A stretch of DNA of 64,000 bases from a virus. The DNA lies in IMG/VR virus record IMGVR_UViG_3300037993_001242, positions 124,001 through 188,000 of that record; one strand, written 5' to 3'. Positions within the stretch are counted from its first letter, which is position 1. The number at the start of each line of letters is the position of its first letter. The notes beneath the pieces are model-generated. The model had not been told where the DNA came from. It did no database searches and saw only the letters and a list, made by a program, of their open reading frames with translations. The position numbers were made by a program, and so were the translations under genes. This document shows positions 8,366-28,535 of this stretch, one piece after another.

Positions 8366-8686
8366 ATGGCTGGACAAAGAATTGAACTGCCGCCCTACTC
8401 GATGTTTGCAAAAACGCCTGTATACGACGTTGGCGGCACCATCGTTTTCGGCCTCATGGCCGACGTGATTGTCCCCGACTTGACGGACAATCTTTTCATC
8501 ATTCCGCTGGAAGGTGTCAATCGGCTGGACTTGATCTCCGATGAATTTTACGGAACCCCGGAACTGTGGTGGGTACTCGCCCGCGTAAACAACATCCAAG
8601 ACGCGCTGGTCGGCGTCCCGGTCGGAACCACGATCCGCATCCCCACCAAAGACCGACTGGCCAGCGCCGGAGTGCTGAACGTATGA
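8366..8686 (+). CDS. T4 gp53-like baseplate wedge / LysM-type tail protein
   Basis: 106 aa. The C-terminal half reads RLDLISDEFYGTPELWWVLA then NNIQDAL and GTTIRIP, the hallmark of the gp53/LysM-like baseplate family (a start-up sheet, 'YGxPxLWWVLA', final 'G(T/S)xLRIP'). In T4, gp53 joins neighbouring baseplate wedges. It overlaps the tagged gene downstream by 4 bases. This is the clearest tail gene in the window and indicates a contractile-type baseplate. Confidence 0.8.
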   Translation: MAGQRIELPPYSMFAKTPVYDVGGTIVFGLMADVIVPDLTDNLFIIPLEGVNRLDLISDEFYGTPELWWVLARVNNIQDALVGVPVGTTIRIPTKDRLASAGVLNV

Positions 8687-9120
8687 AAGCAACCCGCTTG
8701 GTAGCCGTACTGCTGGAAGACGACCCGGATGTGGTAGACCCTGTCCGCTACTTGAAGGATTTGACCGGGCCGGACAAACGGATACGCATCACGTTCAGCC
8801 GCACCACACCGGAATCCGCCGTCGAGGGTGACTTTTCCTCCAGCGGCTGGATCGACGAAGAAGGTGTCGAGATGACCCCTGACCTGTATGACGTTGAAGA
8901 TGGCATCACCGCCGTCGACAAGACGGTAAAATTTTTACGGGATGAAGGCGCGATCACCGCCTCTTCCAGCCATTTTTCACCGGGCGATTGGTTCTCAACA
9001 GATTGGCGCACGGTTGATTACCGCACCGGCGAGGATGAAGAACGAAGTTTTCATCTTGTTGGATTTACACCGGAAGAACAAATTGAAATACACGACCGCC
9101 TTTTTAAGAAAGGACAATAA
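8683..9120 (+). CDS. Tag-A protein within the tail operon
   Basis: 145 aa. N-terminus MKATRLVAVLLEDDPDVVDP then VRYL is tag A, almost identical to the protein at 3426. The rest is an acidic beta-rich domain ending in a Lys/Arg helix. Its place between the baseplate gene and virion genes (ATG overlap upstream, 2-base gap downstream) supports late, morphogenesis-time expression. Confidence 0.75.
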   Translation: MKATRLVAVLLEDDPDVVDPVRYLKDLTGPDKRIRITFSRTTPESAVEGDFSSSGWIDEEGVEMTPDLYDVEDGITAVDKTVKFLRDEGAITASSSHFSPGDWFSTDWRTVDYRTGEDEERSFHLVGFTPEEQIEIHDRLFKKGQ

Positions 9121-13084: not shown

Positions 13085-13362
13085 ATGGCATGAATGACGA
13101 ATTCAGTCTGCTGCCCAGCGATCTGGACATGGCGCGTCTGGCGGGAATACCAGTCGATGGCCGGGTGGAAGCTGAAAATCAGACGTGGGTCTGCCTTCGT
13201 TACCCGACCAAACCCGCCAAAGGCTGGCAGTGGTGCGAATACTCCTTGATCGTCAACTGTCCTAACGTGCCTGCCCACGGGGGCACGTATGAGTTTAAGT
13301 GCTTGAAGGGTGTTGTCGCCTATTTACAACAATTGGAAAACGTACGAAAGGCCAACCATTGA
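13081..13362 (+). CDS. Small hypothetical protein
   Basis: 93 aa (a second Met lies at residue 4). Trp-rich core (TWVCLRYPTKPAKGWQWCEY) with three cysteines and a C-terminal helix. ATGA overlap with the large virion gene and with the tagged gene downstream. Unknown function. Confidence 0.6.
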   Translation: MNGMNDEFSLLPSDLDMARLAGIPVDGRVEAENQTWVCLRYPTKPAKGWQWCEYSLIVNCPNVPAHGGTYEFKCLKGVVAYLQQLENVRKANH

Positions 13363-13733
13363 AAGCCGCACAAATCGTAAACCAACTGCTGGAAGTTGGC
13401 CCGGATGAAATCAATCCGAAACGGGAAATGCTGCGCGTTGATCCGGCGGCGGACATCAAGGAAATCGTTCACGCCCTGCAAAACGAAGGCATTCTTACGC
13501 TCGCGTACAAGAGGGCCGCCGACATCCTTAAACTTCACGTAAAACTGACCGAATGGACAACCGAAGAAAGGCTTGAAAACTGGCTACATGTGTTTTTAAC
13601 GGGACAACTGAATCTTCAAATTGACATCCACGGAATGACAACCAGAAATTTAGGCCCCGATTATAGTGGCACCGCGTATGAAGTCATGTTCCCGCTGAAA
13701 GGCCAACCCACGCCCTTTACAAAGTTGGTGTAG
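13359..13733 (+). CDS. Tag-A protein with TTG start
   Basis: 124 aa. The start is TTG 13359, overlapping the previous stop, because it places tag A at the extreme N-terminus exactly as in its relatives: MKAAQIVNQLLEVGPDEINP followed by KREML. The downstream domain is mixed alpha/beta and unrecognised. Ends in TAG. Confidence 0.7.
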   Translation: MKAAQIVNQLLEVGPDEINPKREMLRVDPAADIKEIVHALQNEGILTLAYKRAADILKLHVKLTEWTTEERLENWLHVFLTGQLNLQIDIHGMTTRNLGPDYSGTAYEVMFPLKGQPTPFTKLV

Positions 13734-13740
13734 TTAAAAC

Positions 13741-14853
13741 GTGATCGCTGAAACCATCGTCCGCGCTTTGCTGGAAGAAGTTGAAGACCAGCACCGCTTT
13801 GTGACCGTCGTCGTCCTGCGCAACCCGGACGACCCGGAAGTCCTGTTGGTGCAGCGCAAAAATCCGCCGGAAGCAGGCAAGTGGGGCGCGCCGGGCGGCC
13901 ATGCCAATGAAGGCGAAGCGCTTACGGACGCAGCCAAGCGCGAACTTAAAGAAGAAACGGGTATTGAGGCCGCCCAACTTCATTACTTTGACCGCGTATT
14001 CATCCCGGAACGGGATGCCTTCGACAACTTCTACTGGACGGTTGTAGACGATGACGCCAGTGCCCGCCGGGGTGACGATGCCAAACACGTCAAATGGACG
14101 AAAGTGGCCGAGATCGGCGAACTGGCTTTCAACTGCCACGTACAGATCAAGGACGCGGCTGACCGGGCGTTCGCCATCGGCAAAATTGCCGAATCAAAAG
14201 CCGAGGGCAAGTATGGACGCAACGGCCTGCTGATCGTTTTCGAGGGCATCGACGGCGCGGGCAAAACCACGCAGGTCAGGAAACTGACCGGCTGGCTCGC
14301 CGAACGCGGCTACAAGGTCAAGACCACCAAATGGAATTCATCGGAAATCCTCAACGGCGCGCTGTACAAAGCCAAAAAGCACAAGGAACTTTCGCCCATC
14401 CTGTTCAGCCTGCTCCACGCTGCCGACCTCACGTGGCGCTACGAGAACATCGTCCGGCCCGCCCTCGACAAAGGCAAAGTCGTAATCTGCGACCGCTACT
14501 ATTACACCAGTTACGTCCGTGACAGCCTGCGCGGCGTCAACGATGCGATCCTCGATTACATTTACGAGGACTGGCGCAAACCCGACGTGGTCTTTTACTG
14601 CAAGGTTCCCATTCGCACAGCGGTCGAGCGCTTGCTGCGCGAAAAAGGCGTGTATTACTACAGCGCCGGGCGGGACATCGGCTACAAAGGCAGCAAAGAG
14701 GAGTGTGCCATGCAATACGAGGAGGACATGGAAAAGGTGTACAAGCGCCTTTTTGCCAAAGAACCCAGTGTGTCTGAGATTAGTACCGAACGCCCGATCA
14801 GCGAAATAGCTGATGAAATCAAGGCTATTTTGAAGAAAAAGTTCGATGTTTAA
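13741..14853 (+). CDS. NUDIX hydrolase-thymidylate kinase fusion
   Basis: 370 aa, GTG start. Residues 18-150 are a NUDIX domain with box GGHANEGEALTDAAKREL plus KEETG (52-74). Residues 160-370 are a P-loop dNMP kinase: FEGIDGAGKTTQ (168-178), the DRYYYTS motif near 250 and a Tyr/Lys-rich lid. The kinase makes dTDP for DNA synthesis; the NUDIX part could remove damaged or unwanted nucleotides. The N-terminus MIAETIVRALLEE looks like a worn copy of tag A. The fusion puts pool sanitation and dTTP supply in one chain. Confidence 0.85.
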   Translation: MIAETIVRALLEEVEDQHRFVTVVVLRNPDDPEVLLVQRKNPPEAGKWGAPGGHANEGEALTDAAKRELKEETGIEAAQLHYFDRVFIPERDAFDNFYWTVVDDDASARRGDDAKHVKWTKVAEIGELAFNCHVQIKDAADRAFAIGKIAESKAEGKYGRNGLLIVFEGIDGAGKTTQVRKLTGWLAERGYKVKTTKWNSSEILNGALYKAKKHKELSPILFSLLHAADLTWRYENIVRPALDKGKVVICDRYYYTSYVRDSLRGVNDAILDYIYEDWRKPDVVFYCKVPIRTAVERLLREKGVYYYSAGRDIGYKGSKEECAMQYEEDMEKVYKRLFAKEPSVSEISTERPISEIADEIKAILKKKFDV

Positions 14854-15599: not shown

Positions 15600-15606
15600 A
15601 TTTAAT

Positions 15607-15686
15607 GCGGAGGTAGCTCAGTTGGCAGAGCGCGTGGAGCCTTCACAGGTTTCACGAGGTCGGACGTTCGATCCGTTCCCTCCGCG
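15607..15686 (+). tRNA. tRNA-like gene 3 with extended anticodon arm
   Basis: Acceptor GCGGAGG / CCTCCGC, D arm GCTC...GAGC with GG, variable loop AGGTC and T arm GGACG-TTCGATC-CGTTC are all canonical. The anticodon arm is not: CGTGG...TCACG encloses 14 bases, and these pair further to give a 9-bp helix CGTGGAGCC / GGTTTCACG closed by TTCACA. CCA is not encoded (the gene ends G-ACA). Confidence 0.6.
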
Positions 15687-15699
15687 ACACTTACAAACA

Positions 15700-16536: not shown

Positions 16537-17790
16537 TCAGACGTGCAGAAACGTACGGCTGCCCGGCGGCTTGACCGCGTCATGGGCAGCCGTGTTGTAT
16601 TCAAGTGCGTGACGCGGTAACTCAAATTCAAATCCGCGATTCACCGCCGCTTGATTATCAAACGACAGTTGCACCCAAGTCACAGGGCCGTTGGGTTTTA
16701 GACCAAACTGATTAAGCGCCTTATTGACCTTGATTTTGGCTCCCCGTGCTGTGGCGTAAACATGGCCGTATACACGCCATTTATTTTCGTGGCGACAGAC
16801 GCCGATAGCGCGCAACCCAACACTGTCCATAGCCCACATGAGCTTGTCGACTCTGGCCTTGGTCTCGAATGTGGTTTTAATAAATTGACGCGGATCAACG
16901 GCGTCAGGGTCTAAAGTTTCAGTCACGCGTTTGTTTGTTTCCAGCCACAACGCCATGGCTACATCCATGGCTGTACTATATGTTTTACCTTTGAAAATTT
17001 TTGTTGGAACGCCCGTAGCGTCAATAACCCGCCATTTACCAGACTTGTTCAGACCTATTTTACCAAGGCCATTATTCCAGAGTGCATGTTCATCGGTTAA
17101 GACCGCGTACCAGTCAGCATATTTAGCAAACCTGAAATCTGGCGTTGTTAGGGTGTACGCCTTGGGATCAACGGCATCTGGATCAAGTGCCTCTTTGATG
17201 CTGAATTCAGCTATCAATTGATCAAGGCGCACTCCCAGCAATGCGCGCTCAACGTATTTGGAACTTGTAAGCTCCCATCTGCCATTCTCACTTGTGTACA
17301 CTTGCACAGTAAGTTCATCGAGCGGCTCCCCCGCACCGAAATGGCTGTGGTTGGGCCAGACAATCAACTGATAATTGCCTATGTTTTTAAAGTAGAAACC
17401 CGGAGAATCTTGTCTCGATGCTTCCAGCGCAAATCCGCGTTCACCCAGCGTCTTCAGCCAGTTAAAGGTGCTGCGCGCATAATGACGAGGATCAACATCG
17501 TCAGGATCAGCTTCACGCAGCGCCATCAGCTTGTGTATACGCTGGGCGGCTGCCTCAGCAAATTGAGCGTGCCGGACGCGAATGGTGGTGATGGCGTAGC
17601 CCTGCTTACGTGCCTCCTGCCGGGCCTGTATGGACGCCTTGCCCTTGTTTTCAGCGTGGCCCGTGGCCAGCGCGTGGGTTTCGTCGGGCAGCGGCAGCAG
17701 CGACCAATACCAGATGTGGCTCCCGTTTATTGGAGCGGGCCGGTATTCAAGGGCGGCATACCTGCGTTGAAACAAGGCGTTAGCGTTCAC
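16537..17790 (-). CDS. Multi-motif protein with three internal tag-A sites
   Basis: 417 aa, GTG start. Three copies of the motif lie inside the chain: LREADPDDVDPRHY (E at 93), IKEALDPDAVDPKAY (E at 200) and VTETLDPDAVDPRQF (E at 291). They cut the chain into segments of about 93, 107, 91 and 126 residues. Segments 2-4 begin alike (Y/F then T-T within six residues) and contain a GKWR/NKWR strand, so they may be one repeated domain. The leading Glu bond matches T4-type prohead-protease sites. Function otherwise unknown. Confidence 0.75.
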   Translation of the reverse strand: MNANALFQRRYAALEYRPAPINGSHIWYWSLLPLPDETHALATGHAENKGKASIQARQEARKQGYAITTIRVRHAQFAEAAAQRIHKLMALREADPDDVDPRHYARSTFNWLKTLGERGFALEASRQDSPGFYFKNIGNYQLIVWPNHSHFGAGEPLDELTVQVYTSENGRWELTSSKYVERALLGVRLDQLIAEFSIKEALDPDAVDPKAYTLTTPDFRFAKYADWYAVLTDEHALWNNGLGKIGLNKSGKWRVIDATGVPTKIFKGKTYSTAMDVAMALWLETNKRVTETLDPDAVDPRQFIKTTFETKARVDKLMWAMDSVGLRAIGVCRHENKWRVYGHVYATARGAKIKVNKALNQFGLKPNGPVTWVQLSFDNQAAVNRGFEFELPRHALEYNTAAHDAVKPPGSRTFLHV

Positions 17791-17804
17791 ACGCTAACTA
17801 CCGC

Positions 17805-18020
17805 CTACAATAAGGTGCCCGCTGATGGCAAAATACCATCAGCGGGCAGTGAAAACAGTCTCTCCAGCTTAATCGACGGACGGTAAGCAATCTTCCGTTT
17901 GTCCGCCATGAACCGCTTGATCTGGACGTGGACGTACTTCGCAAACCGAGCCGCCCAGTAGCGGATCGTTGCCTCGTACACGAACTCGGTTACGAAAATA
18001 CGTACAAACCAAACGAACAT
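17805..18020 (-). CDS. Small basic aromatic protein
   Basis: 71 aa. An amphipathic, aromatic N-terminus (MFVWFVRIFVTEFVYEATIRYW) could sit at the membrane surface, and a basic segment follows. The 3' end is inside a 13-bp hairpin. A near-consensus promoter stands 6 bases before the ATG, so the mRNA should start at or next to the start codon. This promoter is the best support that the gene is real. Confidence 0.6.
   Translation of the reverse strand: MFVWFVRIFVTEFVYEATIRYWAARFAKYVHVQIKRFMADKRKIAYRPSIKLERLFSLPADGILPSAGTLL
17816..17848 (-). terminator. Strong hairpin at the end of the 17805 gene
   Basis: 13-bp perfect stem TGCCCGCTGATGG / CCATCAGCGGGCA with a 7-base A-rich loop. It lies over the last codons of the 17805 gene and upstream of the 17790 gene. 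It may terminate or stabilise the upstream transcript; no T run follows directly. Confidence 0.55.
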
Positions 18021-18026
18021 GCCTAA

Positions 18027-18054
18027 ACTGTATACCGCGCTTTAAATTCGTCAA
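18027..18054 (-). promoter_or_regulatory. Conserved phage promoter, leaderless type
   Basis: On the - strand: TTAATTTTTATG, then TTGACG (18049-18054), 16 bp, TACAGT within GTATACAGT (18027-18032), then 6 bases to ATG 18020. It shares the AT-rich block ahead of -35 and the short distance to ATG with six or more promoters in this window. Confidence 0.7.
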
Positions 18055-18062
18055 CATAAAAA

Positions 18063-18278
18063 TTAAACGTCATTTTTCAGCCTGATGTGCTTAGTTTCGA
18101 TGTCGAGCACGAGCGCTTCGACACGTTGAGCCAATTGTTCGGGCGGGCATTTGAGTTTTTCGGCCAGATGTTGCACCAGCACACGGTTAGTGACCATGCG
18201 CTGGTATTGTTTCCTGAGCCTACGTTTCCACTTCAGCCGTCGTTTTCGGGTAGACCAGATTCTGAGGACAATTATCAT
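18063..18278 (-). CDS. Small basic protein
   Basis: 71 aa. The N-terminal 30 residues are extremely basic (RKRRLKWKRRLRKQYQR); the rest is a helix with KCPPEQLAQRVEALVLDI. It overlaps the TOPRIM gene by 4 bases, so they are probably co-translated. A nucleic-acid-binding partner of that protein is possible. Confidence 0.65.
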   Translation of the reverse strand: MIIVLRIWSTRKRRLKWKRRLRKQYQRMVTNRVLVQHLAEKLKCPPEQLAQRVEALVLDIETKHIRLKNDV

Positions 18279-19168
18279 TTCTTTTTCTGATTGTCCGCAC
18301 GCAAGGACGCAACCGCCGTCCGTAGGAGTTTCTTGTCCTCTTCCTCTTTGGCTTTAACATCGTCCATTTTGTCTTCGTCCAAAACGTGACTGAACGCCTC
18401 GCGGATCACCTGTCCAAGAACTTCCGGCGGCAAGGCGTCAACTTCCCACGACTCATTGCCGTGCCGACCAACGTACGCCAAAGCCCGGCTGTCGCTCATT
18501 TTGGCCGGGTTGGGCGGCGGGTTATACTCCTCGATCTGCTCCATCGTCAGGGCCAGCTTTTGCACCATCACTTCCGACCCAAACATGTGCAACCGCTCAC
18601 GGATGTCGCGCACCATATCCTCACCGGAGGGGTCGTGATCACCGAGGTAAAACAAAATGGAAGTCTGGCCGTTATTTTCGTGGCGGATCATTCGCTGCGC
18701 CGCCTCGTACAGGGCGCTCTGACTGGAATAGCCCTTGTTGACCATCATCGTGACGTGAAACTCGTTGGCAAGGGGCAGCAGCACGCCGGAAAGGGCATCC
18801 TTCTCGACCCAAAGCTCAACATAGTGCTGCTGGCCCGCCCACCGGGGCAGCCGAAATGAGTGGAAAGCGGCGTCCAGCAATTCATCCAAATCCTCGAATT
18901 CCGGCGGGGATTTGGGCACCCGGACGCGATCCTCAATAGCGTCCCAGTCAATCAGCCCGGCCAGCCGGGCGTCACTGATCAGCTTGCCGAGGTTTTTGTA
19001 GGACTTTTCCTCGTTGGTGATCAGGTTGGCGATGACATGCTGGTAATAAAGCTGGCGCAACGTCAGCTTGAGACCTTGGGCCTGATACCGGACAATAATT
19101 TCATTGGCGACGCGAACGCGTTCGCGTTTTTCGTCGCTCCAGCGGCTTTCTACGAATGCTTGTTTCAT
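18275..19168 (-). CDS. TOPRIM-domain protein, topoisomerase VI-A/Spo11-like
   Basis: 297 aa. N-terminal helices include TLRQLYYQHVIANLI, similar to the DNA-binding part of Spo11/TopoVI-A-like phage proteins. The TOPRIM acids are visible: E122 in LWVEKDAL and the DxD pair D177/D179 in YLGDHDPSGED. These residues bind Mg2+ and act in strand breakage or nucleotidyl transfer. No partner B subunit is seen nearby. The Lys-rich C-terminus ends DNQKKK. TATAGA lies 6 bases before the ATG. Confidence 0.75.
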   Translation of the reverse strand: MKQAFVESRWSDEKRERVRVANEIIVRYQAQGLKLTLRQLYYQHVIANLITNEEKSYKNLGKLISDARLAGLIDWDAIEDRVRVPKSPPEFEDLDELLDAAFHSFRLPRWAGQQHYVELWVEKDALSGVLLPLANEFHVTMMVNKGYSSQSALYEAAQRMIRHENNGQTSILFYLGDHDPSGEDMVRDIRERLHMFGSEVMVQKLALTMEQIEEYNPPPNPAKMSDSRALAYVGRHGNESWEVDALPPEVLGQVIREAFSHVLDEDKMDDVKAKEEEDKKLLRTAVASLRADNQKKK

Positions 19169-19215
19169 AATATCTCTATACCAATAATGGGGACAGCGTT
19201 AACCCCTAAAGGACA

Positions 19216-19584
19216 CTATTTTCTTCGCTTTTGAAGTTTACGAACGTGTTCAACCGGCGGGCGTTTGACCAGATAGCGCTTGTTGTGCGTTCGTGCTCCG
19301 CGTTCGCTGGTGTATAAATCCCAATAGGGGCGTAGCAGGTCTTGACCGCGCTTTAGTCCTTTTGGGACTCTGCCTATGATACATTTGGAAAAGCGCCAGC
19401 TTGAACGTCCAACGCAACCAACGCCCGGTTTATGGGTATCTTCCCTGCCGGTGTGCATTTTCATTGTTTGCCAGCGGACGAACTGAAATGAACCCACGTC
19501 AGCACCCGAAAACCGCATGTAAAGAGTTTGGCCCCGCTTGATGGGAGTTATCTTGATTTTATCAGACAATTTTTGCGCGTTCAT
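19216..19584 (-). CDS. Hypothetical basic protein, leaderless mRNA
   Basis: 122 aa, basic, with a clustered tail (RKLQKRRK) and a central GCVGRSSWRFSKCIIGRVPK segment. Its ATG sits 6 bases after a near-perfect -10, which supports the start and predicts a leaderless transcript. No family recognised. Ends in TAG. Confidence 0.7.
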   Translation of the reverse strand: MNAQKLSDKIKITPIKRGQTLYMRFSGADVGSFQFVRWQTMKMHTGREDTHKPGVGCVGRSSWRFSKCIIGRVPKGLKRGQDLLRPYWDLYTSERGARTHNKRYLVKRPPVEHVRKLQKRRK

Positions 19585-19590
19585 ACCAGT

Positions 19591-19619
19591 AATGTATACG
19601 GGTATGACAATAATGTCAA
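19591..19619 (-). promoter_or_regulatory. Conserved phage promoter, leaderless type
   Basis: - strand ATTAAATTTTTCTA then TTGACA (19614-19619), 17 bp, TACATT (19591-19596), 6 bases, ATG 19584. It is one of the two or three best matches to the family consensus. Confidence 0.85.
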
Positions 19620-19638
19620 TAGAAAAATTTAATCGCCT

Positions 19639-20568
19639 CTACTTGGGTTCATGTGGCTCGTTGCCACCCGCATGACCACAAACATCGCCCCCGGTATCAT
19701 CCACCAAAACGCCCTGTTCCTGCTTGACCCGCTTGTTGCAGTGAGCGCAACGGTGAGACCATGTTGCTCCGAATTTACCGCGCTCTATATCCTGCTGAGT
19801 CAATTCGACCCATATCTGCCTTAATTGATCCCAGTCCCCTTTTTCGGCAACCCCCGCGTAAATTAAAATGGCCTGATCCAGATCATAACCGGCCTTCGTC
19901 AACTCCGCTCGCGCCAGCGCTTCAGCATCTTCCTTGGAAACAGCTTGAACCGGATAGTCAAGCGCCGGTGGGCCATCTACTTCAATATCCCTACCCTCAA
20001 CGTCTTTGGCTCCCTCGAATGATACGATCCAGTAGTGACCGGGCAGCTTTTTAAGCATAACCCGTGGGTCAACTTCGTCGGGATCGATGGCTTCCCTGAC
20101 TCGTTGCACGCGATCCCGGTGGTCTGCCCATTCCTGTTTGGCGCGCTTTTTCTCCACGCCGGTCATGTCGAACGGACTGGTCACCATGCTCCAACGCCCG
20201 CAGGCGCATTTCCACCCATCCCACGATGATACCAATCGGCAGGGCTTGTGGCCGTGCTTGAGGCTGAAGCGCTTGAAGTTGATGTCATCAGGATCGAGCG
20301 CTTCGTTACGATATTTGGGCTTTGAAACGATCCCGTATTTTCGTTCCAGTTCTTCTCGTGGTGTATGGTATATTTCTTCCTCTTCCACTTGTTGGGGCCA
20401 ATCACTGAATGGACAGGTTAAATCAGCACAGTATCCTGATTGGTCAACGTCACTACCGCATTTTTTACAAAAACCCGGTATGTGAAGTACTTGCTGTTTG
20501 AAGTCAACGTCGTCAGGATCAGCTTCCAGCAGGCGGGAAACGATGAATTGTGCTCGCGGGGTGTTCAC
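19639..20568 (-). CDS. Multi-motif zinc-ribbon protein with three tag-A sites
   Basis: 309 aa, GTG start. Tag A at the N-terminus (QFIVSRLLEADPDDVDF, E15) recurs as RNEALDPDDINFKRF (E89) and VREAIDPDEVDPRV (E159). Each segment carries its own module: a CxxC...C zinc ribbon at 34-52, a CACGRW knuckle at 121-126, and a C-terminal domain with HRCAHCNKR. If the motifs are cut, four small proteins result. The role of the modules is unknown. Confidence 0.75.
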   Translation of the reverse strand: MNTPRAQFIVSRLLEADPDDVDFKQQVLHIPGFCKKCGSDVDQSGYCADLTCPFSDWPQQVEEEEIYHTPREELERKYGIVSKPKYRNEALDPDDINFKRFSLKHGHKPCRLVSSWDGWKCACGRWSMVTSPFDMTGVEKKRAKQEWADHRDRVQRVREAIDPDEVDPRVMLKKLPGHYWIVSFEGAKDVEGRDIEVDGPPALDYPVQAVSKEDAEALARAELTKAGYDLDQAILIYAGVAEKGDWDQLRQIWVELTQQDIERGKFGATWSHRCAHCNKRVKQEQGVLVDDTGGDVCGHAGGNEPHEPK

Positions 20569-20894
20569 GACTGCGATACCGCGCTCATGGCCGTCTGCTC
20601 CACGTAGCGCTGGGCATCGTCACGCGTGGCAAAGCCATCTTTTTGGGGAGCGCGCCGGGGCATGGCAAACCAAGGACTTTGCAGCGTCCGGGCCTTGGCC
20701 TCCGGCGTCATGGACGGCGGCAGGTTGGTTTCCATGTGCTTGCTGATCATGCCCAGCCACCGGCCATCCGACGAATGTACACCGTAAACTTCCGGCTGGT
20801 CTTCGACCGGTTGCAGCGTGCTGGATAGAGGAGCCGCACTCGTCGGTTCATCTTCCAGCAAAAAGGATACCATCTGGCGTGCTCTGGTGCTCAT
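20565..20894 (-). CDS. Tag-A-like small protein
   Basis: 109 aa from ATG 20894 (MSTRARQMVSFLLEDEP), chosen over the upstream Met because it lies 2 bases after the previous stop and puts the LLE tag at the N-terminus. The DPD part is degenerate (EDEPTSAAP). The rest includes a short strand pair (EVYGVHSSDGRWLGMI) and a helical end. Unknown function. Confidence 0.65.
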   Translation of the reverse strand: MSTRARQMVSFLLEDEPTSAAPLSSTLQPVEDQPEVYGVHSSDGRWLGMISKHMETNLPPSMTPEAKARTLQSPWFAMPRRAPQKDGFATRDDAQRYVEQTAMSAVSQS

Positions 20895-20896
20895 GT

Positions 20897-21235
20897 TCAG
20901 CCGCTTGTTTTGTCGTCTTTTTGAGGATGCCACTTAAAGCGAGTGGTCAAATCGTGCTTGAACGACGGCGTTTCCGCTTTAGGCGGTATTTTAATCTTAA
21001 TCGTCGGCCTGCTTGCTTTAGGTTCAGCCGAGATGGCTGAGGTTTGCTCGTCCGGCTCCACTGTTGGTACCTGCGCAGAATACGCCCGTTGACCCAAAAA
21101 GTCCTTGGCCGTGAATTTGAACTTTTTAAAACCGCTTTGCCGCCACGGATCACTTGCGCCACCAACAGGCACAGGTGTATTTCCAGCGTATTCCAGCAGC
21201 TTGTCTACGACTTCGGCAGCAGTTAGTTTGACCAT
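20897..21235 (-). CDS. Tag-A-like small protein, Lys-rich
   Basis: 112 aa from ATG 21235 (MVKLTAAEVVDKLLEYAG), preceded by AAGG; a Met 9 codons upstream is possible. The LLE tag is present without the DPD. The body is disordered and Pro/Lys-rich (RPTIKIKIPPKAE). Function unknown. Confidence 0.6.
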   Translation of the reverse strand: MVKLTAAEVVDKLLEYAGNTPVPVGGASDPWRQSGFKKFKFTAKDFLGQRAYSAQVPTVEPDEQTSAISAEPKASRPTIKIKIPPKAETPSFKHDLTTRFKWHPQKDDKTSG

Positions 21236-21251
21236 TGCCTTAACTACGACA

Positions 21252-21977
21252 TCATCTTCCACGATACCTCACCGAACCTTGGCGCACCAACGGACGACCC
21301 ATCCGATAACGCGTCAATCTTGATTTTGGCATCCGTACGATTGCCGGTGAATCTGGCTCCTTATTGATGGTGGCAAACGCCCGTTCAACCCGGCTGGCAT
21401 TCAAGCTTACAGGTAGTAGTGGTCTCGAAAACGCCCTTTCTATCCAAGCATCCATAAAAACATAAAGCTCCTTAATATCTTCAAACGAATGCGTGTGCAG
21501 AACACGAATGATGCCAATCATCTCCGTTTCAAATTCTTCCAGATCAGAGTGCTCATGTATCGAATAATGCCGGGTAAATTCACCGTCTGGCGTCACCACC
21601 AACACATGCTTGATCCCGCGCCGCCCCGACACGCGCCGAAACCATCCAAAAGCAAACCAAGTCGTCAACGTGTTGTCCAAAACGTGACCATCCGCGCCAC
21701 AATTCACAAATATCCGGCAAAAACTTGCTGGACGCTTTGACCGTTCGTGTTTGTAGCCTCTGGCCAGTGGAACATCTCGAACGTATGCCTTGAGATGATT
21801 GCTGCTCGCCGATTTATTAAGATTAAACTCCAAGCGCTTCAACCGCTCGGTTACGTTCAGATGATCCCATACGTAGAAATCGAGGGCGTCCGGGTCAAAC
21901 TTCTGGTGCTGGTGTTGAAGGGGCTTTTTCACTGGGTTCTTCTTTGTACCGCGTGAACGGTTTGATGGGTTTGTCAA
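21252..21977 (-). CDS. Hypothetical protein with FDPDALDF motif
   Basis: 241 aa. Residues 27-34 (FDPDALDF) resemble the tag-A core but lack the preceding Glu. The middle is a mixed alpha/beta domain (HVLVVTPDGEFTRHYSIHEH). The first 83 bases overlap the upstream gene, so a start nearer the motif (a GTG about 15 codons in) is plausible. Unknown family. Confidence 0.65.
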   Translation of the reverse strand: MTNPSNRSRGTKKNPVKKPLQHQHQKFDPDALDFYVWDHLNVTERLKRLEFNLNKSASSNHLKAYVRDVPLARGYKHERSKRPASFCRIFVNCGADGHVLDNTLTTWFAFGWFRRVSGRRGIKHVLVVTPDGEFTRHYSIHEHSDLEEFETEMIGIIRVLHTHSFEDIKELYVFMDAWIERAFSRPLLPVSLNASRVERAFATINKEPDSPAIVRMPKSRLTRYRMGRPLVRQGSVRYRGR

Positions 21978-22419
21978 ACCAGACCACGCTGTCGTCGTTC
22001 ATTTCCGCACCGACATAATCGGTCGGCAATATGGCCATTTGGCCTTCACTCGGTTTCCTGTACGCCGACCGCAAACCATAACCTTTAGCCGCTAAAGCGG
22101 CTTTTCCTTTGGCATACGGGCCGGTACCGGAATAATGAAGCTGCTCACCGGTGATAAATCGCTTCACATCTTTACGCTTTTTGCCGTACCGCGCAAGTTC
22201 GCGCTCAAGTTCTACCACACAACGAAGTTCGTCCCACGTAGCATCGGCTTTCCGACGCAGGGTCTTCAACTGGAGAAATTTGGCATGAATCGAATCCCAG
22301 TGTTTAAAAAGTTCAGAGTGTTCGCCGGTCGGCTCGTCGGCTCCCTGCGGCGGAGGCGGCACCGGCTGGTCAAGATCAGTTTCAGTCAAAACATCCACTA
22401 TGTTTTTCGCTTTGCTCAT
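21895..22419 (-). CDS. Hypothetical protein with tag-A-like N-terminus
   Basis: 174 aa. N-terminus MSKAKNIVDVLTETDLDQP has the hydrophobic spacing of tag A with T-E-T in place of L-L-E. It is followed by a charged coiled-coil-like stretch (HAKFLQLKTLRRKADATW) and a Gly/Tyr-rich region. Unknown function. ATGA overlap with the upstream gene. Confidence 0.65.
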   Translation of the reverse strand: MSKAKNIVDVLTETDLDQPVPPPPQGADEPTGEHSELFKHWDSIHAKFLQLKTLRRKADATWDELRCVVELERELARYGKKRKDVKRFITGEQLHYSGTGPYAKGKAALAAKGYGLRSAYRKPSEGQMAILPTDYVGAEMNDDSVVWFDKPIKPFTRYKEEPSEKAPSTPAPEV

Positions 22420-22682
22420 AGTCTAATTACTTCGCCACACCGGACACAAACATCGCAGACATACTGCTTTTCCGTCACGTCATTGCCGTTTCTTAACATT
22501 CGTTCAAACGTATCCAACGCTTCCATCTCCTCGCCTATCGGAGCCGCATCTATAAGGCGCTCCAAATCCTCAGCCGTCGACGGCGGATGATGAACATGAG
22601 AATCCACGCTGGCCGTGTTGTAGCGCGGCTTAAACTTATGGCCGAAAATCAGCCCAAACAGTCCTCGACAGCGCTTATTCAT
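22416..22682 (-). CDS. Small Cys-containing protein
   Basis: 88 aa. The C-terminal CDVCVRCG holds a compact cysteine cluster, and a short hydrophobic GLFGLIFG lies near the N-terminus. No recognised family. It overlaps the 22675 gene by 8 bases. Confidence 0.6.
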   Translation of the reverse strand: MNKRCRGLFGLIFGHKFKPRYNTASVDSHVHHPPSTAEDLERLIDAAPIGEEMEALDTFERMLRNGNDVTEKQYVCDVCVRCGEVIRL

Positions 22683-23751
22683 TATTCAATCCAACCAAAG
22701 TATGATCGAGCCAAATCCGTTTATGGGTCTTCCAAAATCCCTGTTTGGCCGCTTCATCAGCGTTGGCCCAGTCTATGTAGCCATCCGCCGTGCGTGGCAG
22801 CAGGGCCACCGGCACCAATTCGCTCTTTTTGCCGATCACTTGATACGTCCAGTGAGCGGCCCGGCGATGAAGCGCCGGACTGGCATGGGTTCCGGTGCCG
22901 TCGCTCTGGCGCACCATGCGGTAATTGGCTCCGATAATGATGGGTGCCCAAATTGCCGGGCGTTCCACGCCTCGTTTCACTTTGGCTGGACGATCCACTT
23001 TTTCCTTGCCAACCAGACCATCACGCCAGTTGAGTACGCACAGAAGTTTGAGCATCAACAATGACACTTTATCGGTGGCTTCCTTGTTCTTGGCCACCAC
23101 GTTTGCCGGGGCACCTGTCCAGTCGGTATAGTCAAAATCCTTCGTGATAGCGTCAGCCAAGGTCTCGTTCCAGTAACTGGACACGTAATTTTCCATACGG
23201 CCATTTTTCCACGCATACCACATCCATGACACCTTGTCCTGTGTCGCCTCGATCTCCGGCGCGCCGGGAAAGTACTTGCAGGTCATCGGCTTTTTCCATT
23301 GCTGACACGCGTATACATAGCAGGTATCGATACCCAGATAATCGTGCATGAATTTCGCTGGAAATCCAAAAACCAAGCCCGGCATGGGCCACTTCAGTTC
23401 CTCGATCCGCAGGTCTTTGGGCAGTTCCGTCGCCGCCACCGCCCGGATGAACTCGTCGGCCACGTAGTAAACCGGCACATCTTGGTTGATGACCTCGTAA
23501 CAAATCGCCTGCGCTGTAATCCGTTGGGGTATCACCGGTCTGCCGGAAGCGATGTCCTCTGCATTCTCACCGACCATCACATGCAGCCCGACGGCAACTT
23601 CCTTGCTGCTGTGATACGTGCCGGGAGCCTGTCGTTTTTTCGGCTCGTAGATGGACAACATCAAAAGCGGAATGTCGGCGTGCATATCCTGCATCACCGC
23701 GCTCAAGGTGGGCCAGCGCTGCATCATCTTAGCTTCGGCAGGATCAATCAT
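22675..23751 (-). CDS. Phage protein with AcrVA2-like features (tentative)
   Basis: 358 aa. The C-terminal region SPALHRRAAHWTYQV ... FWKTHKRIWLDHTLVG has the 'RxHxRRxHW ... RxxWxxxxxV' shape that I associate with AcrVA2-family anti-CRISPR proteins, and the middle ELKWPMPGLVFGFP segment resembles that family's LxLPxWxVYV strand. The match is by eye and weak. AcrVA2 proteins lower Cas12a production; whether this one does so is untested. Overlaps by 8 bases with both neighbours. Confidence 0.45.
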   Translation of the reverse strand: MIDPAEAKMMQRWPTLSAVMQDMHADIPLLMLSIYEPKKRQAPGTYHSSKEVAVGLHVMVGENAEDIASGRPVIPQRITAQAICYEVINQDVPVYYVADEFIRAVAATELPKDLRIEELKWPMPGLVFGFPAKFMHDYLGIDTCYVYACQQWKKPMTCKYFPGAPEIEATQDKVSWMWYAWKNGRMENYVSSYWNETLADAITKDFDYTDWTGAPANVVAKNKEATDKVSLLMLKLLCVLNWRDGLVGKEKVDRPAKVKRGVERPAIWAPIIIGANYRMVRQSDGTGTHASPALHRRAAHWTYQVIGKKSELVPVALLPRTADGYIDWANADEAAKQGFWKTHKRIWLDHTLVGLNNE

Positions 23752-23983
23752 GGCATTCTGCCTTTTTAAGGAACCACCAAACCGCCGCTGCCAGCAGGAG
23801 ATAGGCGAGTGCCAGAATCAGAAATTCCGTGTCCAGCCGGTCAATGCGGTGTTGTAGTTCGGCAATCTGGCCGCTGGCGTACGACGCGTTGGCTCTGGCC
23901 ATTTCAAGGGTTTGGTGCATCATCTGCGCGGTAGGATCGTTGGTACCGTGAGGCAGAGCAATAACTGCAAACAAAGTTTTCAT
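23744..23983 (-). CDS. Small membrane protein
   Basis: 79 aa. A weakly hydrophobic N-terminus is followed by a helical stretch with heptad character (AELQHRIDRLDTEF) and a single C-terminal transmembrane segment (LILALAYLLLAAAVWWFL), ending KKAECHD. The topology suggests a tail-anchored protein. A holin or spanin-like role is possible but unsupported. ATGA overlap upstream. Confidence 0.65.
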   Translation of the reverse strand: MKTLFAVIALPHGTNDPTAQMMHQTLEMARANASYASGQIAELQHRIDRLDTEFLILALAYLLLAAAVWWFLKKAECHD

Positions 23984-25089
23984 AATTTGGTTTCGATATA
24001 AGGTTCAGGGAACGGTCGAGCCACAAATTTAAGTGACTCGAAATAGCGATAGTCGTCGGCTCCCGCAATGAAACCGTGGCCTTTCAAATTCAATACAAAT
24101 CGGGTGACATTTTCCGGGCCGTGACCATCCCAAATCTTTTCCGCGATGTCGCCCGCTTCCTGATACGCACCACAGGGCCAGAGGGTGTCAATAAAATCGG
24201 CTCCAGCCACGTAAACGTGGCCATGAATCAGGTATTTGATGCGTGGATAAGTCGCGAACAAATGCGCCTGTATCGGAGTATCTACGGAAGGTTTATGTTC
24301 ACCAAAATACTTGTAGACAGTTTTTGGCCCCGACCCCGGAGTCAAGATCACCGGCACAAATCCATCCGCACCAATGGATGCTTTGTCGATGTTGCGCCGT
24401 GAAATAAAAGCAATGTCGCCATCCCGAAAGGCGGGAAAACCGTGACTACACCGAAAGGCAGCATTCCCGACGAAACGCTCAACGATCTTGGGCACTGGCA
24501 ACAGCCCACTGAATTGCTGCGCTGCCGTGCGGATGTAATCAAAAAATCCGGTTTCTTCCGGCACTGGCGGTACGGCACCTTCAATCCGCTCGGTGCCAAT
24601 GCGCAGGACGGTCGCTAAAAACTTCAGACGATTGCCAATGGCACGGCCCATGTCCGTAAAATCCATGGACTCGTAAAACAAATTGCCCAACGGATCATAT
24701 AAGCGGGCGCGATAACGGCTATCCTGCTTGGTGAATACAACGACCAGATTGGACTTCAGGTGAAGCGCGTGCTGGATGATTTGCGCCAGATCATAATTCT
24801 TTTCGACCACGCGCTTGGAAGTCACCAACAGGCAGGTTTTGTTCTGGGCCTTGATCTCGCGCACCGTGGTTTTGGGCGCGTCGTTGGGCACGTTGGCAAT
24901 CCAGATCACCGCAATACCGAGTGTACGCGCTGCCGCACTGGCCTCTTGCAATTTCTCCAGTCCGCCGCCATTGATAAAGATACCCTCTGCACCGAGAACG
25001 TCGGCCACGCCGCGATGCAGCGCTGCCGCAAGACTGGAAGGTCTGCCGCCAGCATTGTCAAAATTGCCACCTACAAAAACGTATCTCAT
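23980..25089 (-). CDS. Fusion: nucleotide-binding-like domain plus class II aldolase domain
   Basis: 369 aa. Residues 1-170 look Rossmann/flavoprotein-like (MRYVFVGGNFDNAGGRPSSL and a central IAVIWIANVPNDAP), resembling phosphopantothenoylcysteine-type or NAD-sugar proteins. Residues 190-340 are class II aldolase/adducin-like, with DTPIQAHLFATYPRIKYLIH then GHV giving the His-x-His metal site. Such domains cleave phosphosugars or condense small aldehydes. The pair may serve sugar or cofactor chemistry in the infected cell; the substrate is unknown. Confidence 0.7.
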   Translation of the reverse strand: MRYVFVGGNFDNAGGRPSSLAAALHRGVADVLGAEGIFINGGGLEKLQEASAAARTLGIAVIWIANVPNDAPKTTVREIKAQNKTCLLVTSKRVVEKNYDLAQIIQHALHLKSNLVVVFTKQDSRYRARLYDPLGNLFYESMDFTDMGRAIGNRLKFLATVLRIGTERIEGAVPPVPEETGFFDYIRTAAQQFSGLLPVPKIVERFVGNAAFRCSHGFPAFRDGDIAFISRRNIDKASIGADGFVPVILTPGSGPKTVYKYFGEHKPSVDTPIQAHLFATYPRIKYLIHGHVYVAGADFIDTLWPCGAYQEAGDIAEKIWDGHGPENVTRFVLNLKGHGFIAGADDYRYFESLKFVARPFPEPYIETKL

Positions 25090-25099
25090 GGTTCATTGC

Positions 25100-25127
25100 T
25101 GGCCTGCCAACAGAGGTTGGCAGGCCA
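25100..25127 (-). terminator. Strong intergenic hairpin
   Basis: 12-bp perfect stem TGGCCTGCCAAC / GTTGGCAGGCCA with a 4-base loop, in the 52-base gap between the 25142 and 25089 genes. No T run follows; it may attenuate or protect the transcript. Confidence 0.6.
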
Positions 25128-25141
25128 ATTCAACGCGTTGA

Positions 25142-25507
25142 TTATTGCTGCCGGTTTTTGCGCGCACGCACGGCAAGACTGGCCTTTTGCGCCCGCAACA
25201 GTACGGCATACGGAACGTGCTCGCAACCAATGTACACGTCGCCCAATTTGCCATCATAGTCACCACCGTCATTGTCGACGGAAAAGTTGACCGTATGGCC
25301 GCCGGTGACTGATCTAATGGTCTTGGGCGGCTTGGGCTGGTCGTGCATGTACCGGGCGTGTTCCACAATGCGATCCAGTTCTGCCGCTGTCACCTGCTTC
25401 TTGCCTGCTTCCTCGCCGCCTTGATAGTCACAGATGGCTCCGGTGGCGTCCACACAGAGGGCCAAGTCACTTGGTAACGCTATGGTTGGTAGTTTGGTGT
25501 CTTTCAT
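25142..25507 (-). CDS. Hypothetical phage protein
   Basis: 121 aa. N-terminal LPSDLALCVDATGAICDYQGG, middle helix with TAAELDRIVEHARYMHD, end basic (ALLRAQKASLAVRARKNRQQ). No catalytic motif seen. ATGA overlap with the upstream gene. Confidence 0.65.
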   Translation of the reverse strand: MKDTKLPTIALPSDLALCVDATGAICDYQGGEEAGKKQVTAAELDRIVEHARYMHDQPKPPKTIRSVTGGHTVNFSVDNDGGDYDGKLGDVYIGCEHVPYAVLLRAQKASLAVRARKNRQQ

Positions 25508-26091
25508 AGTTTTGTCTGATGTTTTGTTTTACTGTTTGTTTTGATATTCCCGCCACGTGGCCGGAAAGCGCCGTAAATTTTCTTGGGAGGCTCGGCAAAG
25601 TAGCGCAGCAGCGCCGGGCAGAACCAACCTTCCATTTTGAGTTGCTCGCAAAAGTACCAGTCGCCGGTGCCGCTTTCGTCCCCGCGCAACCACGTTAATT
25701 CGATGATCGTCCCCGGAAATGGCCGGTCGGAAAACATGCAGATGAATCCGTTTTCCGCATCAGGAATCTTGGAGGTTATCGTGTCGAGGATGGTGTCCAC
25801 CCCGGACACGAAAGCCTCCTTGTTCAATCCCGTGGCGGGGTCGTCAAAAACCCACAGTCCGTTCCACTTGTAGGGCATGATGACGCGGATTTCGTTGCGC
25901 GGTGAAACAAGGGCGCGGCAATCGCCCAAAGTCAATTCGACGCTGCTTAGTCCGTGCTGGGCATACGCGATCAGCGTATCGTCAGGATGCCGCTGATTGA
26001 AGCAGGGCGACCCTTCGTACAGGTCGTGGATGCGCACGATCTCCGCAATTTTTTGAAACGCCGAGGCAAACGTTGAGGGGGTATCGTTCAT
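25504..26091 (-). CDS. DUF6717-like phage protein
   Basis: 195 aa from ATG 26091 (MNDTPSTFASAFQKI); the longer frame overlaps the upstream gene throughout and is rejected. The segment IMPYKWNGLWVFDDPATGLN, then FVSGVD, CMFSDRPFPG and EGWFCPALLRYF is a pattern I recognise from a family of uncharacterised proteins called DUF6717, found in plasmids and phages. No biochemical role is known. Confidence 0.65.
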   Translation of the reverse strand: MNDTPSTFASAFQKIAEIVRIHDLYEGSPCFNQRHPDDTLIAYAQHGLSSVELTLGDCRALVSPRNEIRVIMPYKWNGLWVFDDPATGLNKEAFVSGVDTILDTITSKIPDAENGFICMFSDRPFPGTIIELTWLRGDESGTGDWYFCEQLKMEGWFCPALLRYFAEPPKKIYGAFRPRGGNIKTNSKTKHQTKL

Positions 26092-26092
26092 A

Positions 26093-26431
26093 TCAGTTGC
26101 GGCTGGCCGTGGCTTTGCGATAAACCCAAACGGCCATGTCTTTGGGCATGACGACGACCGTGACTTCGGCGGGATGATTGAGCACAAAGACGCCAGAATG
26201 GTCGATCCCCTCTGATGTGTTGGCTTGAACGACCATGGCGCTGAACTCCGTGGATTTGCCCTCCAAGCCGCGAGAACCTTTGGGGGTGGATTTATCCGTC
26301 CAGACAATTTCACCGGTGTCAACTGCCTCGGTGAATCGGTGCAAGTACTTTACCGCGCTGGCAATCACGCCAACACCGTTGACGGCGGCAACCGCAGCAT
26401 CTCTTAACGCTTTATCGAAATTATCGTCCAT
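26093..26431 (-). CDS. Hypothetical protein, near-leaderless
   Basis: 112 aa from ATG 26431 (MDDNFDKALRDAAV). The promoter -10 ends 9 bases upstream, fixing this start over the Met at 26461, which would lie inside the promoter. Alpha N-terminus and beta C-terminus (VTVVVMPKDMAVWVYR). Unknown. Confidence 0.65.
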   Translation of the reverse strand: MDDNFDKALRDAAVAAVNGVGVIASAVKYLHRFTEAVDTGEIVWTDKSTPKGSRGLEGKSTEFSAMVVQANTSEGIDHSGVFVLNHPAEVTVVVMPKDMAVWVYRKATASRN

Positions 26432-26440
26432 GCTCAAAGC

Positions 26441-26469
26441 ACCGTATACAATAACCGGCACTCTGTCAA
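26441..26469 (-). promoter_or_regulatory. Conserved phage promoter
   Basis: - strand TTAAATTTTAGTG, TTGACA (26464-26469), 17 bp, TACGGT (26441-26446), 9 bases to ATG 26431. Same layout as the other promoters of the family. Confidence 0.8.
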
Positions 26470-26482
26470 CACTAAAATTTAA

Positions 26483-26767
26483 CTAAAAAAGGCGCGATTC
26501 AACCAGCGGTTCAAGCTCGGCGGCGTAAAAATATAGATTGTCTCCGGGTTCAAATCCGTCGACGTGTATCCAAACCGAATCTGGATCGTCGGTTGTTGTA
26601 ACCACAGTTGCTTTTTCGCGAGGCCAGCCGCGCTTGTTGAGCATTACCCGTTCTCCCTTCAAAAATCTCTGCCGCTGCTGCGGACGCGCCATACGCACAT
26701 AATGCTTCGGATCAACTTCGTCCGGGTCGGTTTCCAGCAACCTGTTTACAAGATCGTGCGTGTTCAT
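26483..26767 (-). CDS. Tag-A protein
   Basis: 94 aa. N-terminus MNTHDLVNRLLETDPDEVDP then KHYVRM is a textbook tag A. The rest is a small beta-barrel-like, SH3/KOW-type segment (GERVMLNKRGWPREKATVVT, DSVWIHVDGFEPG) that could bind nucleic acid or protein. ATGA overlap with the next tagged gene upstream. Confidence 0.75.
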   Translation of the reverse strand: MNTHDLVNRLLETDPDEVDPKHYVRMARPQQRQRFLKGERVMLNKRGWPREKATVVTTTDDPDSVWIHVDGFEPGDNLYFYAAELEPLVESRLF

Positions 26768-27087
26768 ACATTTTTAGGCCCGATGTATTGAATACTGATG
26801 ACGTAAGACACGTCATCCTTGGGCACCAAATCCGGTCGATTGAGCGCGTCAATGGCATTGAAAAACTGTTCCACCCAAATCGTTTCATCGATTTCATCGT
26901 CAGGTTCAGTCCCAGCGGGCGGCGCAAGCGGCACGATCACAACCGCAGTATATCCTTCTTCCGGCGTGGGCAAGTCAACGGTGACGTGGTACTCGTACAG
27001 CAGGTTGATGTGCTGCAAATAGTCCTTCGGACGAAGTTCGTCCGGGCCAACTTCCAGCAACCGGTTTACAATGTTGTGCGCATTCAT
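26764..27087 (-). CDS. Tag-A protein
   Basis: 107 aa. N-terminus MNAHNIVNRLLEVGPDELRP then KDYL; closely related tag to the 26483 protein, but the downstream domain is different (acidic alpha/beta, IWVEQFFNAIDALNRPD). This shows the tag moves between unrelated bodies. ATGA overlap with both neighbours. Confidence 0.75.
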   Translation of the reverse strand: MNAHNIVNRLLEVGPDELRPKDYLQHINLLYEYHVTVDLPTPEEGYTAVVIVPLAPPAGTEPDDEIDETIWVEQFFNAIDALNRPDLVPKDDVSYVISIQYIGPKNV

Positions 27088-28535
27088 CCGTGTCGTCTAA
27101 TCCAACTAAGTATCAACTTTTTGGCTTCGAGTTCCGAAAGATCAAATTTTTGAGTTCCTTTGATGTTGTCTTCGCCCTCACGCCAATCCGCCACAGACAC
27201 TGTCCACAGACCGTCCTCCTGCTTTCTTGCCGTGTAAACAAAATCAGTAGTGTTACGTTCAAAAGTAGGATAACTTACGGTTTGCCCCTGTATCACCGGC
27301 AATTCTGGATCAGCCACAAATTCCTTGTCCTCGCGTCCTTCAAAACCGTGCGCTCTAAGCCACGATTCAAAAGACTGCGGCAACTGCCGGAAAAGTTCTT
27401 TGGCTGGAGGCGGCTGATCCGGGTCAATCGACTCCACAACTTCTGGGATGTGCCGCCATTCCAATTTAGCCCTGCAACGGCCACACTCCTGCAAATCGAG
27501 ATCATCTTCGTCGCCGGGCTTGATGCCGTTGAATCCAGCCTCCAGATACGAAAAATCATCCATCAACAACCCCCGGAAATGGCAGATCGGGCATTCCACC
27601 AGTGGATTGCCAGTGTCTTCTGGATTGGCAATCACAATCAGTCGACCCTGAATCTTCAAATCACGCGGGGTCATCCCTTTGGTGTAATCTTTGGGCTTTA
27701 TCTCGTCAGGATCGAGCGCTTCATTGACCGTCAATCCGAGCTTGTGGGCTAAATCAGGGCGCGCTCGTCGTATCCAAAGCGCCAGTGCTTTCTGGAAAAC
27801 AGTCATCGAAGCCGATGTCCCCCAACGATCAATATATTCCGCAATGTACCCCGTGCCTTCCATGGTTCTCAACGACTGAACATCTTCTGGATTTTCCGAA
27901 CCAAAGTTGATTAGCGCGAGTTCATCCGAATCGTTTCGTCGTCTGCAATTGCTGTATACGTTCTCAATAAATTTATCAGACTTGGTAGCAAAGTATGGCG
28001 CAGCATCCGTTGTCACAGGTGGCACTCCCTCTGGCGCGTCCTCTTCATCCACCCAGATTTCCACCATGAATCGCTCTGGAATTTTTCGGAGAAATTCTTT
28101 GGGTTTAATTTCATCAGGATCGAACGCTTCGTCCATGCCGGGTGGCTCAAGATGGATGTCGTCCGCGTCTCCATGCTCCGGCGGCGAATACTCGTTATCA
28201 ACTGCTTGGGCAAAAACTTCAACAGGCTGTCCCGCCTCTTGTTCCATTTCGTCCTGCGGCTTCCAGCCTACACCGATCCAATGAACACTGGAATACGCGT
28301 ATAATTTTGCCTGCCAGACGTAAATCCACAGCAAAGTCTTTCCTTCAGTGAAACGCGCCAATTTTTCGTATTGAGCTTCGTTGGGTTTCGACATCTGCAC
28401 AAAGCGCCAACCCAATTTTTCCAGTGCGCCCCGAATCTCCAACAGCAATCCCTTTGGCACATCAGACAGGTACTGACGTGGATTAACATCATCCACGGCA
28501 TCAAGCAAAGCTGAAACTAGGCAGCGCGGCGTCAC
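27084..28535 (-). CDS. Large multi-motif protein with four tag-A-type sites
   Basis: 483 aa, GTG start. N-terminal tag CLVSALLDAVDDVNPRQYL, then MDEAFDPDEIKPKEFLRKIP (E136), VNEALDPDEIKPKDY (E272) and VVESIDPDQPPPAKELF (E368). Segments are about 120-136, 96 and 115 residues. Segment 3 holds a zinc ribbon (CPICHFRG ... CGRCRAKL); segments 1 and 4 end with ordinary alpha/beta domains. After several motifs comes a similar [LF]-R-[KQ]-[IL]-P-[EQ] helix. Function of the modules unknown. Confidence 0.75.
   Translation of the reverse strand: MTPRCLVSALLDAVDDVNPRQYLSDVPKGLLLEIRGALEKLGWRFVQMSKPNEAQYEKLARFTEGKTLLWIYVWQAKLYAYSSVHWIGVGWKPQDEMEQEAGQPVEVFAQAVDNEYSPPEHGDADDIHLEPPGMDEAFDPDEIKPKEFLRKIPERFMVEIWVDEEDAPEGVPPVTTDAAPYFATKSDKFIENVYSNCRRRNDSDELALINFGSENPEDVQSLRTMEGTGYIAEYIDRWGTSASMTVFQKALALWIRRARPDLAHKLGLTVNEALDPDEIKPKDYTKGMTPRDLKIQGRLIVIANPEDTGNPLVECPICHFRGLLMDDFSYLEAGFNGIKPGDEDDLDLQECGRCRAKLEWRHIPEVVESIDPDQPPPAKELFRQLPQSFESWLRAHGFEGREDKEFVADPELPVIQGQTVSYPTFERNTTDFVYTARKQEDGLWTVSVADWREGEDNIKGTQKFDLSELEAKKLILSWIRRHG

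Follow-up and report, generated by a model that had tools for sequence, protein, structure and literature searches.

The internal proteins of T-even phages form a highly diverse set of defence proteins that have only a capsid-targeting sequence (CTS) in common (PMC3012670). In T4, the gp21 protease cuts after L/I-x-E; targeting depends on the N-terminal part of the CTS (residues 4 and 7) and processing on residues 8 and 10; gp23 is shortened by 65 residues, and Alt is known to be processed at its C-terminus, as gp21 is expected to be (PMC9026906). Here we describe a recurring peptide, tag A, in a 64,000-nucleotide stretch of viral DNA (the window), which lies at positions 124,001 to 188,000 (G000:124001-188000) of the 199,098-base IMG/VR virus record IMGVR_UViG_3300037993_001242 (G000). 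We conclude that tag A is most probably a lineage-specific, T4-like CTS that would be cut by the prohead protease of the phage, including within cargo polyproteins. A first-pass annotation of the window had proposed that the tag packages proteins into the head and is removed there, an interpretation that the sequence comparisons below support.

The core of the tag is [KN]-A-x-x-[IL]-V-x-x-L-L-E, eleven residues patterned as an amphipathic helix (hydrophobic moment 0.51; shuffles, 0.30). We found it on 27 G000 genes, mostly at the N-terminus. Scored with a position matrix at 12 bits or more, N-terminal tags were present in 22 of 293 G000 genes against 0.06 expected from shuffled N-termini, and in 16 genes of the relative G002, whose capsid protein is 91% identical to that of G000, against 0.08 expected by the same procedure; as the matrix was built from the N-terminal tags of these two genomes, both counts are partly circular. 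The matrix is not circular for other contigs, nor for C-terminal and internal copies. The lineage set comprised G000 and ten other contigs, and the tag is clear in seven of these ten; at 13 bits or more, N-terminal tags number three each in G003, G006, G012 and G016, six in G009 and eleven in G010. Pooled at this threshold, the 11 genomes or contigs contain 68 N-terminal, 15 C-terminal and 25 internal tags, some of the internal matches being due to chance. Two phage contigs of another lineage that encode an S77 protease (G007 and G008) had the tag at neither N- nor C-termini. The ending register differs among phages (LLE, LLNE, LLGE or MLSE), and in each P3 stays hydrophobic and P1 stays Glu, which matches the gp21 rule. 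Glu closes 64 of the 68 N-terminal tags, and some tags end in Asp.

The first-pass annotation had described the LLE ending and the DPD motif behind it as one N-terminal motif. Both parts exist, but they are not a single unit: an LLE helix is followed by a separate leader, xDPDxVxPKxYLxxLP, which comes after many tags and recurs between the units of long proteins. Each module can occur without the other: there are tags with no leader and leaders with no helix. Using a strict pattern that was defined post hoc, with the sequences already seen, the leader follows 15 of the 68 N-terminal tags, in four phages (background 0.6%, p=1e-19). All eleven open reading frames named in that annotation exist, with the N-termini it described; for genes on the minus strand, the position by which it listed them is the 3' end, and the tag lies at the opposite end (for example 20524-20556, 26732-26764 and 27052-27084). 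The tags in the window are as follows, with ↓ marking a putative junction here and below.

3429..3461, plus strand: N-terminal tag NAVALVTKLLE of gene 3426-3866, then leader DDPDVIRPKDYLRQLP
4479..4511, plus strand: C-terminal tag RAQRIVTNLLE of gene 3879-4517, which ends ATE↓SRAQRIVTNLLES and stop
8686..8718, plus strand: N-terminal tag KATRLVAVLLE of gene 8683-9120
13362..13394, plus strand: N-terminal tag KAAQIVNQLLE of gene 13359-13733, leader VGPDEINPK
13744..13776, plus strand: N-terminal tag IAETIVRALLE of the NUDIX and thymidylate kinase protein 13741-14853, without DPD leader
20524..20556, minus strand: N-terminal tag RAQFIVSRLLE of gene 19639-20568 (polyprotein-like, 309 amino acids), leader ADPDDVDFK
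20853..20885, minus strand: degenerate N-terminal tag RARQMVSFLLE of gene 20565-20933, with an uncertain start codon and hand-counted coordinates
21191..21223, minus strand: N-terminal tag TAAEVVDKLLE of gene 20897-21262, tag kept in the G002 homolog g38449
22381..22413, minus strand: N-terminal tag KAKNIVDVLTE of gene 21895-22419, tag kept in the G002 homolog g86492
26732..26764, minus strand: N-terminal tag NTHDLVNRLLE of gene 26483-26767, leader TDPDEVDPKHYV
27052..27084, minus strand: N-terminal tag NAHNIVNRLLE of gene 26764-27087, leader VGPDELRPKDYL
28500..28532, minus strand: degenerate N-terminal tag TPRCLVSALLD of gene 27084-28535, then leader VDDVNPRQYLSDVP, coordinates counted by hand

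The tag had been taken to be N-terminal, which holds for most copies, but genome-wide it also occurs at C-termini and inside proteins, positions that the annotation did not foresee. At 12 bits or more, four genomes carry eight C-terminal tags where about 0.13 would be expected. Directly before the tag, E[ST] is present in 9 of the 15 pooled C-terminal copies, against a 2.9% background (p=6e-11), and the final Glu of the tag itself is kept in 7 of the 15, against 64 of the 68 N-terminal ones (p=6e-5). The protein end VE↓SAERIVNRLLEA and stop in G016 is one example. A putative junction lies on either side of some internal tags, as in KE↓SAEQIVDRLLE↓Y of gene G000:58636. A cut between cargo and tag requires this shift of Glu to the cargo side at C-termini, and Glu after the tag at N-termini and before it at C-termini fits a cleaved targeting signal.

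As cutting predicts this placement of Glu, it speaks against the tag being an uncleaved helix that docks proteins to the prohead core or another assembly intermediate, with the tagged proteins serving as assembly factors and not as injected cargo. We regard that alternative as unlikely, though it is the best of those considered: the conserved feature is an amphipathic helix that could alone be a docking peptide and, in T4, Asp at the last CTS position permits targeting without processing (PMC9026906), an ending that some of the tags share.

A protease that would make such cuts is encoded outside the window. The first-pass annotation had pointed to the rest of the genome for a gp21-type protease and for more tagged genes, and both were found. 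A Pfam Peptidase_S77 match (E=1e-17) at G000:26878-27333, minus strand, falls within the 571-amino-acid gene product of G000:25726-27441, also on the minus strand. The same protein matches the PHROG head maturation protease (E=5e-30) and, by sequence, the solved prohead protease 5jbl (5jbl_A, E=4e-6). Consistent with the S77 family, it has both the family profile and the catalytic His and Ser, His84 and Ser148 being invariant in the 11 related sequences. Its long C-terminal region looks scaffold-like, suggestive of a protease-scaffold fusion, and its gene adjoins that of the major capsid protein (phrog_138, T4-superfamily). The N-terminal region of the capsid protein contains a conserved L/M-x-E at about residue 84 (GRLDE↓V, GQMSE↓S), which we consider a candidate protease site. 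The protease itself opens M-RQYLVE↓G, and its conserved end, ESxxMxRRLS, resembles by eye a degenerate C-terminal tag. On other contigs, the small protein G003:154071-154508 resembles a piece of the major capsid protein (capsid residues 313-400), and a small capsid-like protein, G001:97429-97845 (VTWDATP...HKFTILDA), opens by eye with a DPD-type leader.

The L-x-E ending of the tag fits the known specificity of this co-encoded protease's family. That fit would be unexplained if the tag sent proteins elsewhere in the cell, such as to the membrane or a replication compartment, or were a degron or an oligomerisation helix; nor would one expect the tag to be used at both termini and internally, with its Glu relocated. 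Any of these roles could be filled by a short amphipathic helix, and some bodies are enzymes of nucleotide metabolism, which would have a function in the cell as well, but we consider this group of explanations quite improbable.

The proteins behind the tags are modular. Recognisable bodies include NUDIX plus thymidylate kinase, HAD, PDZ (tagged in four phages), 2H phosphoesterase, FkbM-type methyltransferase and ParE-like domains, and the majority have no known domain. The HAD phosphatase-like enzyme is tagged in G000 and untagged in G002 and G003. The body of 8683-9120, which here carries tag and leader, is 48% identical to the last part of the G002 protein g47323, the similarity beginning at the junction FIGE↓SADPDDP; it is also found naked, with neither tag nor leader (MSRRITITF...), on the unrelated virus contig L197, where an S77 protease was not detected. 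Also in L197, a similar DNA stretch seems to be repeated between small genes, with (N)TRLxxxNTT in one frame. The body of 3879-4517 has an HExxH metallopeptidase-like motif, read by eye; here its tag is C-terminal, and in G002 its homolog lies inside an N-terminally tagged protein, G002:194163-195473. This protein joins an HExxH-like half homologous to 3879 to a 2'-5' RNA ligase/2H phosphoesterase domain (E=5e-12) that also weakly matches Acb1 (E=0.008), making it a candidate injected counter-defence protein.

Given such bodies, it is highly improbable that these genes are paralogs of one fast-evolving domain family of which only the N-terminus is still recognisable. An alignment of 91 tagged proteins gave a mean column identity of 4% and a consensus of little beyond the tag, and the tag occurs at C-termini too. 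In favour of paralogy, two body pairs are similar (3426 with g54524 and 3426 with g61119). The claim that the bodies share nothing obvious was nearly right: once trimmed of their tags, they gave one convincing pair, between 3426 and a gene outside the window, and one marginal match of 11 residues. Chance resemblance or recent duplication of gene starts at the DNA level, which the shortness of the tags might suggest, was rejected as having next to no probability, given the shuffle counts (22 against 0.06 expected), the recurrence in divergent phages, and codons that are only 39% identical between copies at shared L, A, V, R or S residues, indicating a conserved peptide and not recently copied DNA.

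The DPD motif had been placed only after N-terminal tags; that is true of many tags, but it is also internal within proteins. A profile of the E↓xDPD junction gave 41 hits at 6 bits or more against 0.67 in shuffles, including repeated internal copies, a count that is partly circular because the profile was made from 25 of the 41. Three proteins in the window are polyprotein-like (16537-17790, 19639-20568 and 27084-28535), with the following features.

16537..17790, minus strand: putative cargo polyprotein of 417 amino acids with three internal E↓xDPD junctions
17455..17517, minus strand: junction LRE↓ADPDDVDPRHYARS in gene 16537-17790, by junction profile
17131..17196, minus strand: junction IKE↓ALDPDAVDPKAY in gene 16537-17790, by junction profile
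16858..16923, minus strand: junction VTE↓TLDPDAVDPRQF in gene 16537-17790, by junction profile
20242..20307, minus strand: junction NE↓ALDPDDINFKRF in gene 19639-20568, by junction profile
20032..20097, minus strand: junction VRE↓AIDPDEVDPRVMLKKLP in gene 19639-20568, by junction profile
27084..28535, minus strand: putative cargo polyprotein of 483 amino acids, counted from a GTG start, whose N-terminal tag is degenerate and which has internal junctions
28068..28133, minus strand: junction MDE↓AFDPDEIKPKEFLRKIP in gene 27084-28535, by junction profile
27660..27725, minus strand: junction VNE↓ALDPDEIKPKDY in gene 27084-28535, by junction profile

Gene 27084-28535 thus has two strong internal DPD copies, along with a degenerate one under threshold. 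In G002, proteins of 1,367, 986, 965 and 657 amino acids have several junctions each, some reaching the profile threshold and the rest read by eye; a clear N-terminal tag was not seen on the 1,367-residue protein at the start chosen by the gene caller. A Pfam scan of the polyproteins 16537 and 27084 gave no domain, and a search of viral contigs for relatives of the 16537 polyprotein returned none. We lean towards the view that cargo polyproteins of unrelated small proteins are loaded in the prohead and split by the head protease into injected proteins, with a signal that works at either end of a chain or within it. Neither the polyproteins nor a leader distinct from the tag had been foreseen in the first-pass annotation.

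From these observations we infer binding, packaging, cleavage and injection in the following way. The amphipathic helix of the tag would bind the prohead core, probably through the scaffold-like part of the protease-scaffold fusion, and a tagged protein so bound would be enclosed as the shell forms. The gp21-type protease would then cut after Glu, at L-L-E↓x at N-termini, at E↓S/T ahead of C-terminal tags and on both sides of some internal tags, freeing the cargo. The DPD leader would be a conserved linker that remains after cleavage and that also connects the cargo units of polyproteins, with [LIVM]-x-E↓x(x)DPD as the site at which this protease would cut them. At infection, the cargo would leave the head with the DNA. 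Like the T4 CTS, the tag could divide into targeting and processing parts. A removable head-loading signal is well supported by the sequences as its likely mode of action, and every feature of the T4 CTS class that sequence can address was found here (an S77 protease in the genome, a short terminal peptide ending in [LI]-x-E, unrelated bodies and an N-terminal position), which would place the tag in that class.

Several points weigh against a cleaved targeting signal of this kind. Three contigs of the lineage, G011, G014 and G015, are sparse in tags, with at most one N-terminal tag each at 13 bits or more, and P3 at the C-terminal sites is not in every case hydrophobic. The gene starts came from a simple, purpose-written caller. 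Cargo genes did not turn over faster: 12 of 29 had a G002 homolog versus 74 of 250 other genes (p=0.21), which does not reproduce the arms-race pattern that has been described in T4 internal proteins. If a cleaved head-loading signal is nonetheless right, a large protein cargo would enter the bacterium with the phage DNA, and through the tag, hypothetical proteins become a list of head cargo that can be tested, 27 genes here plus the polyprotein units. As injected proteins are at work before phage genes are first expressed, that list would be a natural place to seek counter-defence.

G000 and its relatives are metagenomic contigs. The G000 record is incomplete: a 108-kb contig equals its first 91 kb at 99.996% and extends about 17 kb beyond its start. 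A cultured close relative of the lineage was not found, the best capsid match in an annotated phage collection being 30%. Among viral contigs, a degenerate DNA pattern for LLE-DPDE matched a single near-identical contig and nothing else, and a tblastn search of annotated phages with the tag-plus-leader consensus gave no credible match. A T4-type late promoter, TATAAATA, was absent 5' of the tagged genes. Boxes of the form TTGAC-N17/18-[CT]GTATACA lie about 16-19 bases 5' of start codons genome-wide, including before window genes 19216-19584, 26093-26431 and 28784-29257, and also in G002; they are likely early promoters with very short leaders. This enriched early-type box precedes only 1 of 31 tagged or core genes, which is not significant. 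A second repeated N-terminal motif, M-[IVL]-[PIE]-E-x-G-[ST]-x-x-E-F-K-[RH]-x-V-L, lacks the LLE ending and marks a group of small genes clustered on the minus strand, several of which have CxxC pairs, at 157-159 kb, 167.8 kb and 192.5-198.4 kb of G000 (33-45 kb of the window and beyond its right end). The window also holds one tRNA-Val (CAC) gene at 15606-15688, and an Rfam scan of it gave no match.

Among described systems, the T4 internal proteins (IPI, IPII, IPIII and Alt) are alike in having a short N-terminal peptide ending in hydrophobic-x-E (PMC3012670, PMC9026906), diverse bodies with just that peptide in common, and an S77 protease and a T4-superfamily capsid protein in the genome. 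They differ in the sequence of the peptide and in number, with four proteins in a review of T4 (PMC9026906) and 27 tagged genes here, and here the same tag is also found at C-termini and inside proteins, together with a second conserved leader and polyproteins. In phage P1, the N-terminal 30 residues of DarB bring a foreign reporter into the head, but the N-termini of the P1 DarB/DarA proteins have no recognisable consensus (PMC9024508), whereas the consensus here is strong. The head ejection proteins of phiKZ and SPN3US, in the parts of the published accounts drawn on here, likewise involve a gp21-like protease that cuts after Glu and, in SPN3US, prefers Ser at P1', and a packaged and ejected mass of protein; unlike here, their 14 sites in nine proteins have Ala at P3 and mostly long propeptides, and those parts describe neither a shared short tag nor cargo polyproteins. 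Polyvalent proteins (Iyer et al. 2017) also combine many unrelated domains in one polypeptide and are thought to be injected and sometimes proteolysed (PMC5512222). Their proposed cutter is a metallopeptidase within the polypeptide itself (PMC5512222), whereas here a repeated linker matches the head protease. The Pfam scan gave no domain in window polyproteins 16537 and 27084. A signal that works at either end of a protein and inside chains would widen the known rules by which proteins are loaded into phage heads.

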